Assembly: GCF_000518285.1 (NCBI RefSeq)
Contig: NZ_JADH01000002.1
Coordinates: 1-64,000 of the forward strand
Source of the DNA: Williamsoniiplasma lucivorax ATCC 49196
GTDB taxonomy: Bacteria > Bacillota_I > Bacilli_A > Mycoplasmatales > Mycoplasmataceae
DNA length: 64,000 bases
Reading direction: 5' to 3'
Below, one piece after another: positions 28,773 through 59,921 of this stretch; positions within the stretch are counted from its first letter, which is position 1; each line of letters begins with the position of its first letter. Position numbers and translations under genes: made by a program. The notes under the pieces are model-generated. The model saw only the letters and a list, made by a program, of their open reading frames with translations, was not told where the DNA came from and ran no database searches.

Positions 28773-28822
28773 AATCCCCCCTTATTAGATTAGAAAAATG
28801 TTAAAATATTTTTGGTGAAAAT

Positions 28823-29287: not shown

Positions 29288-29923
29288 ATGAAAACATATA
29301 AATGAATCATCGCTAATGATAAAGATATCCAATTGTTTCGAGAATGTCTGGTCAAAACACCCTATTTAGATTTTATGAATCCAAAAGATTTTGATAAATT
29401 ATGAAGTAAAGACTATATACCTATTTTAATTCACAAAACAGCTAAAATAGATATCAAAATTCAACCAAAAATATATCAATTAGTTTTTAATGAAGAATTG
29501 GCTAATGGTTTAACTAAATTTTGTATTAATGCGAATAAATTTGCACCATTATTCGGTTCGCCAAATTCTAGTTATTTTGAAAAACAAAAAGGAGAGGCAA
29601 GTGCAACAATTTCTTCACTGGTGCAAAAATGAAGTTATCATCCAAATCTTTCTATTCTTGATGTTGCTGCAGAATTAATGTATGATTTAGCAACAAAACA
29701 TAAGTTTGCAGATGGTAACAAGAGAACTGCTTTGATTACTACTTTGTTTTTTCTTAAAGCATGTGGTTTATATCTTTTAAAACAAAATCCTAATGATTGA
29801 GATGAATTTACTGCTGGAATAGTGGTTGATCATTCATCTGGTGTGGATGGTGAAACTTTAAAAGAGAGAATTAGAAATGCATTAAAAAATGGAATAACTA
29901 TTTCTTTTAAATGAGGTGAATAG
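29288..29923 (+). CDS. Fic/Doc-family protein (Doc-type toxin-like)
   Basis: A 211-aa protein with the Fic-fold active-site motif HKFADGNKR (His138 to Arg146). The NKR ending, in place of NGR, groups it with Doc-type toxins that phosphorylate EF-Tu rather than with AMP-transferases. Upstream lie about 110 residues without recognised domain (KTYKWIIANDKDIQLF onward). AAGGAG 11 nt before the ATG selects this start; an ATG at 29265 overlaps the RBS. The gene is followed 63 nt later by a 39-aa ORF that could be a partner. No Phd-like antitoxin lies upstream. Confidence 0.85.
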
Positions 29924-29986
29924 TTTAAAATTTGAATATAAATATGTTATATTAACTATATAAAAATGAAATTGGAGATAAAATGT

Positions 29987-30106
29987 ATGAAAAAAACAAG
30001 AACATTAACATATAAAGATATGATGGACTCTCTTGAAGATGCAAAAAAAACAATTTTAAATGATCCAGGAATGGTTGATGCTCTAAAAAGATTGGCCGAT
30101 AAATAA
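29987..30106 (+). CDS. Small 39-aa protein downstream of the Doc-like gene
   Basis: MKKTRTLTYKDMMDSLEDA begins a 39-residue, highly charged, probably helical peptide ending KRLADK. GGAG lies 8 nt before the ATG at 29987; an in-frame ATG at 29966 overlaps poorly with any RBS. A hairpin terminator follows at 30119. Its position suggests an antitoxin for the Doc-like protein, in reverse of the usual Phd-Doc order, but it lacks the S/T-x3-E-G/N inhibition motif of FicA-type antitoxins. Function is inference. Confidence 0.55.
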   Translation: MKKTRTLTYKDMMDSLEDAKKTILNDPGMVDALKRLADK

Positions 30107-30118
30107 TTATTGAATTTC

Positions 30119-30147
30119 AAAAGTATGTGATGAACATACTTTTTTAT
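30119..30147 (+). terminator. Rho-independent terminator
   Basis: AAAAGTATGT-gatga-ACATACTTTTTT hairpin after the 39-aa ORF. Confidence 0.8.
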
Positions 30148-30203
30148 TTGAAAATAAAAATAATTTCCAAGAATGCTTGCAAAATTAGGAAATTTATTCA
30201 ATA

Positions 30204-30370
30204 CTATTATTGAGGTTAGGGTTTCCTTTCCTCAAAGTTTATTGTTCTCATATTTGAAGTATATTTATTTAATCCAAATAAATATAACTTATTGAAAAGC
30301 GACCTTCCTTAAGGAACGCAATTAATAAAAATATTTTCTCAACTCCCATCTTAAAAAGATGGGATTTTTA
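30204..30370 (+). ncRNA. Candidate structured small RNA upstream of rnpB
   Basis: No protein-coding frame fits this 160-nt stretch, but it holds four consecutive hairpins: TTGAGG/CCTCAA at 30210-30235; ATATTTATTT/AAATAAATAT at 30261-30285 with loop AATCC and an extended base; a TTCC/GGAA hairpin enclosed by GCG/CGC at 30299-30319; and TCCCATCTT/AAGATGGGA at 30344-30364 followed by TTTTT, a standard terminator. A possible promoter precedes it (TTGCAA at 30177 and TACTAT at 30202). The region has terminators on both sides, so it looks like an independent transcript of about 155 nt. It does not match SRP RNA, tmRNA or 6S RNA as I know them. Identity unknown. Confidence 0.45.
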
Positions 30371-30392
30371 ATAAAAAAGTATACAATTAAAA

Positions 30393-30740
30393 AGAGATTT
30401 TGATAGTCGACCGCTATATCTGAAAAAAGATATAGAGGAAACTCCACGCTTGCACAATCTGCGATGATTGTAGTGATTATGCTAAATGAAAAAATAAATT
30501 TAGGCATCAAATGATGACGGCAAAACTAACCTAAGGGTAACTATGGAATGGTTTGAGGTGCCACAGAGACGAGTAAAGGGAAACCTGGAAATGGAACGCG
30601 GTAAACCCCATAAGCAAGAAACTCAAATTTTGGTAGAGGAACTTAACGACAAGAATTGAATTGAAGTTAGGATCGAAAGATAGATAGATGGTCGACACAG
30701 GAAACTGGACAGAACGTGGGTTATGCAAAATCTCGTATTT
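30393..30740 (+). ncRNA. rnpB: RNase P RNA (bacterial type B)
   Basis: Catalytic RNA of RNase P, which trims tRNA 5' ends. Ends pair as P1: GAGATTTT at 30394-30401 with AAAATCTC at 30727-30734. The conserved P4 and neighbouring segments are visible: GAGGAAACTCCACGCTTGCAC (near 30433-30453) and, at the 3' side, GACAGAACGTGGGTTATGCAA. The internal GAGACGAGTAAAGGGAAACC region is also typical. Length about 345 nt fits type B. Position after recU-gpsB matches Bacillus. The exact 3' end is approximate; a TTTTTT run lies at 30738-30743. Confidence 0.93.
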
Positions 30741-33117: not shown

Positions 33118-34266
33118 ATGACTAAATTATTTTTAGCAATGTTGTCTATGTCTGGAGCTTCTCCGGTTTTAGCAAGAGCAAACACCGTAACACAAAAAAA
33201 CAATAATGTATTACCAAATAATCCTATTTTAGAAACAAAACAACATTTAACAAATTTAAATGAAAATGATAAAGTAAATTTAACGCAAATTAAATCAGAG
33301 TCAGTATCTATTGAATTAGGAAATTTAACAGGACAAAACCCCATTGAATTAAAAGAATACATTCTTTTAGAAATAGGAACCCAAAATTCTAAAAATTCAG
33401 AAATTATGGATGCTATGATAGATATTATTTACAATGAAAATCAATGAAAAATATTAGGAATTCAATTTGAAATACCACCCAAACATAAGGAAATAAAATA
33501 TAAAGCAAAATTTATGGCTAATAAAAAAAATCCATCTTTTACTGGAGTTTTGTCTATTGATGTCACATTAACTAATTCAGGTAGTCCTAATGATTTATTA
33601 AATCACATTCAGACCAAACATTTAGAAGAAATTCAAAATCCAACAAGTAGGTTAATTTTAGACAAGGTTAAAGAATGTAATTCAAATTTAGATATAAATG
33701 AAGTAGAAGTAATTAATGCTAACTATAAAAATGCTTTAATTAAAGCAAAAGATAACTCTAAAAAATATGAAGGTCAGGTAAAAGTTACATTTAATTCTAA
33801 CATTATTATAAATATTAAAGATATTGCAGAAAATGGTAAAACAGAAACTAAATATGCAAAAGTTGAAGCATATAATTCTACTCAGAATGATCAAGATGAC
33901 TTAACTTTTACATACAAACCTGAATTTGGGACATCAGCATTATTGAATGCTTATAAAGGGGCAAAATTTAAATTTTCAGGAAAGGGATATGTTTATGATT
34001 CATCTAATGAAAAAGCAATTGATGATTCAATAGAAATTCTTTGAAATCAAAAAGAAATGACCCTAAAAAATGATGAATACCCAGGGAGTGTAAATTGAAA
34101 TAAATATTCATCTAATATATCAAATTCAATTAATCATGGAGAAAATAATGTAATTTGAAAAGTAAAAGTAAGTGCAACAGCATATGCATCATGAATTAAT
34201 GCCTATTGATCATATGCCGGAATTCAAATAAAGGTTGATTCAATTGAGTTACTTCCAGCAAACTAA
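33118..34266 (+). CDS. Secreted or surface protein, not lipidated
   Basis: A 382-aa protein with a Sec signal peptide MTKLFLAMLSMSGASPVLA ending in an AxA site (about residues 18-20). Unlike its neighbours' lipoproteins it has no lipobox cysteine. The mature part has two similar modules: ELKEYILLEIGTQNS...MANKKNPSFTGVLSIDVTLT and ILDKVKECNSNLDINEVEV...KYEGQVKVTFN, a pattern seen in Spiroplasma/Entomoplasma surface proteins. The C-terminus is Trp/Tyr-rich and uses many TGA codons. GAAAGGA precedes the ATG. The following ABC genes overlap or abut it, so it is the first gene of an operon. Function unknown; export or immunity by the ABC system is inference. Confidence 0.75.
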
Positions 34267-59790: not shown

Positions 59791-59905
59791 GCCAAAAACT
59801 TATATATGCTAGAATAAAGGTCTAGCGTCTCTACCCTTAACCAATTAAGGACTATAGGTTATCTAAAGTAAGTTTTTGTCAATCACAAAAACTTACTTTT
59901 TTTGG
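59791..59905 (+). promoter_or_regulatory. Purine-class riboswitch with intrinsic terminator, upstream of guaA
   Basis: P1 AACTTATA (59797-59804) pairs with TATAGGTT (59853-59860). P2 GCTAGA/TCTAGC (59808-59826) has a 7-nt loop ATAAAGG with GG. J2/3 contains GTCTCTACC. P3 CTTAA/TTAAG (59836-59849) has a short loop with CC, able to kiss the GG of loop 2. J3/1 reads GACTAT, with C at the base-reading position, which in this class selects guanine-type ligands. A strong terminator (AAAGTAAGTTTTTGT/ACAAAAACTTACTTT, 59865-59899) follows. The 5' sequence AAAAACTTA can pair with the terminator's first arm, giving an antiterminator. Expected logic: ligand stabilises P1, terminator forms, guaAB off. A 2'-deoxyguanosine variant as known in Mesoplasma cannot be excluded. 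Confidence 0.85.
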
Positions 59906-59921
59906 TCTTTGAAAGGAAGCA

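Follow-up and report, generated by a model that had tools for sequence, protein, structure and literature searches.

Mollicute small RNAs are poorly known, and many of them are predictions only. Among firmicute trans-acting small RNAs, those of the Staphylococcus aureus Rsa type pair with Shine-Dalgarno sequences through C/U-rich loops. MCS4 of M. capricolum is an uncharacterized mollicute small RNA. In M. hyopneumoniae, 47 intergenic small RNAs, with an average length of 128, were predicted from composition and free energy (PMC5088518).

The locus described here lies upstream of the RNase P RNA gene in the window, a stretch of 64,000 nucleotides from Williamsoniiplasma lucivorax ATCC 49196 (contig NZ_JADH01000002.1). 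Like MCS4, it would encode an as yet uncharacterized mollicute small RNA, and like the M. hyopneumoniae predictions it is intergenic, of about the same length, and from a mollicute; this likeness is one of position, length, and host group, and the RNA described here differs in being conserved in a second species. It resembles RNAs of the Rsa type in its several hairpins, its intrinsic terminator, and C/U-rich sequence that is kept while stems change. However, its motif is CCUUCYUU or UUUCCUUUCC rather than UCCC, and no Rfam family matched it, either in sequence or by covariance. We consider it likely that the locus specifies a functional, independent RNA, whether this acts by base pairing or by binding protein. 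It would exemplify a small RNA that only some species of a genus with reduced genomes have gained (or kept).

A putative small RNA gene upstream of rnpB

The putative gene extends from 30208 to 30369 on the plus strand, as do all of its parts described below, and its predicted transcript would be ∼155 to 160 nt long, with an uncertain start between 30208 and 30215. Structure prediction placed hairpins P1, P3, and P4 and the terminator where the initial annotation had them. P1 (30210 to 30235) contains the 6-bp stem that had been described (TTGAGG...CCTCAA; 30210 to 30215 paired with 30230 to 30235), together with an inner stem of three pairs (AGG...CCT) and the pyrimidine-rich UUUCCUUUCC inside. 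It is followed by an unpaired linker, AAGTTTATTGTTCTCATATT (30236 to 30255), which is identical at 20 of 20 positions in Williamsoniiplasma luminosum and is a candidate seed or protein-binding stretch. P3 (30260 to 30286), recognized from the fold and from comparison with W. luminosum, corresponds to the second stem of the initial annotation, for which 10 pairs plus an extension were given; there are 11 pairs in the minimum free energy (MFE) structure (30260 to 30270 with 30276 to 30286). P4 (30299 to 30319; centered on 30303 to 30314) has fast-evolving flanks and a retained hairpin, with a conserved CCTTC[C/T]TT at 30303 to 30310. Next to it is a mostly unpaired stretch, AATTAATAAAAATATTTTCT (30320 to 30339), again identical in W. 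luminosum at 20 of 20 positions. The last hairpin is, as proposed, a standard terminator: a stem (30344 to 30364) that is invariant in W. luminosum and a run of five T's form the intrinsic terminator TCCCATCTT-AAA-AAGATGGGA-TTTTT (30344 to 30369). The stretch had also been described as lacking coding potential, and no sense-strand frame starting with ATG, GTG, or TTG is conserved between the two species; reading frames are broken because of a 2-base insertion.

The predicted fold of the whole stretch is considerably more stable (MFE, −38.3) than those of dinucleotide-shuffled sequences (−23.9 ± 3.3; z, −4.38; 0 of 200). The orthologous stretch of W. luminosum gave a similar value (z, −4.27). 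When the terminator was left out, the MFE was −26.3 compared to −17.0 in the shuffled sequences (z, −2.85; 3 of 200). The minus strand folds equally well, as is expected because the stems are perfect, but the last stem is followed by a T-run only on the plus strand, which alone also carries the promoter-like boxes.

Conservation of sequence and fold

The RNAs of W. lucivorax and W. luminosum are identical at 138 of 159 positions (87%), and the match in the homologue search was 83% over the query. In the neighboring genes gpsB and cinA, 27 of 48 four-fold degenerate sites are identical (∼56%), and identity at third codon positions is 56% and 72%, respectively; that of rnpB is 95%. Intergenic conservation alone is not special, because the spacer between recU and gpsB (28773 to 28822 in the window), which is probably a promoter region, is also 85% identical to its W. 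luminosum counterpart (41 of 48 positions).

All of the hairpins outlast the 21 substitutions and two insertions that separate the two species, and the changes are mostly in loops or in P4. In P1, one U-A pair is U-G in W. luminosum, and the P3 loop of that species has a 6-base insertion that makes the stem longer. Both arms of P4 have been rewritten, and yet the hairpin persists and CCTTC[C/T]TT is unchanged. P4 was not counted as covariation, because the register of its hairpin has shifted and a pair-by-pair alignment is not possible.

Random placement of the same changes gave a mean of −24.9 ± 3.9 kcal/mol, compared to the observed −41.0 kcal/mol, and none of 1,000 randomized sequences matched that stability. 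When the columns were kept and filled with random letters, the observed stability was reached in 16 of 1,000 cases, and when the derived letters were permuted among the changed columns, it was reached in 63 of 1,000. The random-letter and permuted-letter tests are the stricter ones, and they provide moderate support for conservation of the fold. The fold is kept under substitution, but RNAalifold detected no pair changed on both sides in the aligned columns of the two homologues, a number with which formal covariation cannot be shown.

These results bear on whether there is a gene at all. A mere AT-rich spacer, containing a terminator and chance hairpins, might give a z score of only −2.85 once the terminator is removed, and might be missing, as the RNA is, in the two further Williamsoniiplasma species examined. 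However, conservation well above that of neutral sites and a fold conserved under change make this explanation improbable.

Comparison with known RNA families

The size of the RNA and its place between housekeeping genes might suggest a diverged form of a known RNA, such as the signal recognition particle (SRP) RNA, tmRNA, 6S RNA, a CRISPR tracrRNA, or MCS4. However, a covariance search against Rfam gave no match at the gathering score and only chance-level matches up to an E value of 10. The initial annotation had found no resemblance to SRP RNA, tmRNA, or 6S RNA, and this was borne out in each case. There was no match to RF00169 or RF00023, and the genes for SRP RNA (G000:C9:46114-46210) and tmRNA (G000:C8:2495-2905) are located elsewhere in the same genomes. 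6S RNA was not among the matches up to an E value of 10, and the fold consists of separate hairpins rather than a rod with a central bubble. A tracrRNA was rejected, as no Cas9 RuvC_III domain was detected in four genomes of the genus. The suggested kinship with MCS4 gained no support either, the RNA core being absent from the 318 other genomes of the order in which it was sought. We regard a diverged known RNA as highly improbable. The suggestion of an uncatalogued structured RNA upstream of rnpB is upheld by the negative Rfam search, by conservation far above that of neutral sites, and by retention of the fold.

Evidence on a putative independent transcript

The promoter-like sequence that had been reported upstream of the RNA was recovered in part. 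The hexamers TTGCAA and TACTAT, 19 bases apart, are conserved, but the promoter is weaker than had been implied and was not listed by a generic promoter scan. TTGCAA (30177 to 30182) is the putative −35 box and is kept in W. luminosum. TACTAT (30202 to 30207) is the putative −10 box, which would put the start inside the 5′ arm of P1; AATACT (30200 to 30205) is an alternative −10 box, with a spacer of 17 from TTGCAA. The sequence at the −10-like region, CAATACTATTATTGAGG, is unchanged between the two species. Promoters of M. florum mostly have TAWAAT with a TGN extension (PMC7745072).

Of the two terminators that had been thought to flank the RNA, the downstream one was verified. Upstream, a hairpin (30120 to 30142) with a T-run is visible, but it was not listed by the terminator scan, its scarcity of G-C pairs being the probable reason. 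In W. luminosum, the RNA directly follows gpsB. In W. lucivorax, gpsB and the RNA are separated by a Fic/DOC-family gene (29288 to 29923; PF02661), a 37-amino-acid open reading frame with no Pfam match, and the terminator-like hairpin. This segment (29288 to 30147 in the window), including the hairpin, is absent at this place in W. luminosum and is a possible toxin-antitoxin-like insertion. That the RNA and TTGCAA...TACTAT are kept in both species despite the insertion favors a promoter belonging to the RNA itself.

Downstream, rnpB (RNase P RNA, class B; 30397 to 30728, plus strand; RF00011, 228.7 bits) begins 27 bases after the end of the terminator and is a separate gene. This short distance, and the lack of a terminator between gpsB and the RNA in W. 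luminosum, would fit a gpsB 3′ untranslated region or an attenuator tuning read-through into rnpB, comparable to a riboswitch-like leader with its terminator. However, rnpB has its own −10-like box, TATACAAT (∼30381 to 30388, plus strand), read from the sequence, which lies past the terminator in both species and also in related species, and inspection of the sequence upstream revealed no antiterminator complementary to TCCCATCTT. Furthermore, the Fic module and its terminator-like hairpin split gpsB from the RNA in W. lucivorax, where the RNA is nevertheless retained, and the promoter-like pair is conserved. We regard a 3′ untranslated region or attenuator as unlikely. For an independent gene, transcription would proceed rightward from a weak sigma-70-like promoter of its own and end at the intrinsic terminator upstream of rnpB.

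Distribution

W. lucivorax is a firefly-gut mollicute, and W. luminosum is likewise a mollicute of fireflies. W. luminosum provided the sole homologue that was found, and it is in the same position upstream of rnpB. Examination of the interval between gpsB and rnpB in relatives located the RNA in this species, but in W. somnilux and in a fourth Williamsoniiplasma species it was missing from the region before rnpB. A core pattern allowing ≤3 mismatches was present in 2 of 320 genomes of the order and absent in the other 318. It was also absent from viral and genome collections, from which the sister genome was possibly left out, and no relative was detected among the phages and plasmids searched. 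When 60 genomes of the family were searched with a covariance model built from the two sequences, no further convincing member emerged. The extra matches of the model in other genera were weak (best E value, 0.0015); the two best-looking ones that were inspected proved to be ordinary terminators, one, in L096, overlapping the end of the enolase gene, and the other, in L098, being an AT-rich terminator-like hairpin. An unfiltered search of the loci upstream of rnpB in five relatives gave chance-level matches only.

Potential mode of action

Our tentatively preferred reading, which we hold at close to an even chance, is that of an independent, lineage-specific small RNA gene whose product probably base pairs with other RNAs in trans, independently of Hfq. 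Hfq itself was not detected above the Pfam cutoff in these genomes. The RNA would pair with mRNAs, and P1, as the 5′ hairpin, and the terminator may protect its ends. Candidate contact points are the invariant linker (30236 to 30255) and two C/U-rich stretches, namely, UUUCCUUUCC within P1 and CCUUCYUU within P4. These two stretches are complementary to Shine-Dalgarno-like sequences, and the complement of the linker, AATATGAGAACAA, contains a start codon.

Complement searches with the linker and P1 gave no target of long complementarity common to both genomes; short seeds would escape such searches. In W. lucivorax, 13-mer complement matches were found at several start codons, including those of a tpiA-like gene, a methyltransferase-like gene, and others. 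No target is claimed, because these matches had no orthologous match in W. luminosum. It is quite unlikely, if conceivable, that the RNA is an Hfq-independent, lineage-specific regulator that arose in the ancestor of the two firefly mollicutes and silences many mRNAs at their translation starts through the linker and the Shine-Dalgarno-complementary stretches.

An independent structured RNA might also act mainly through binding of a protein, or serve as a guide or scaffold, rather than pair with mRNA. The binding site would then be made up of two invariant segments, the linker and the 3′ stretch, possibly joined by long-range pairing. Both unpaired stretches are 100% conserved, and they can pair weakly (UUUAUUG with CAAUUAAUAA), a pairing that is present in the MFE structure of W. 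luminosum; the failure to find a shared mRNA target also fits. However, there was no match to a known protein-binding RNA family, and the C/U-rich stretches suit pairing with Shine-Dalgarno sequences equally well. Action mainly through a protein is possible but rather less than probable. Because the homologue comes from a second species in which close to half of synonymous sites differ, the conserved parts of the RNA show directly which positions to mutate.

Other features of the window

An open reading frame of 382 amino acids (33118 to 34266 in the window) begins with a signal-peptide-like segment and has no match in Pfam. A further Rfam match was to the 2dG-I aptamer (59798 to 59912 in the window; 52.1 bits, with a cutoff of 51), which is followed by a terminator and then by guaA-guaB. 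Its J2/3 UCUACC and GACUAU presumably resemble those of the ordinary guanine class, and the element probably belongs with the guanine riboswitches and not with those for 2′-deoxyguanosine.
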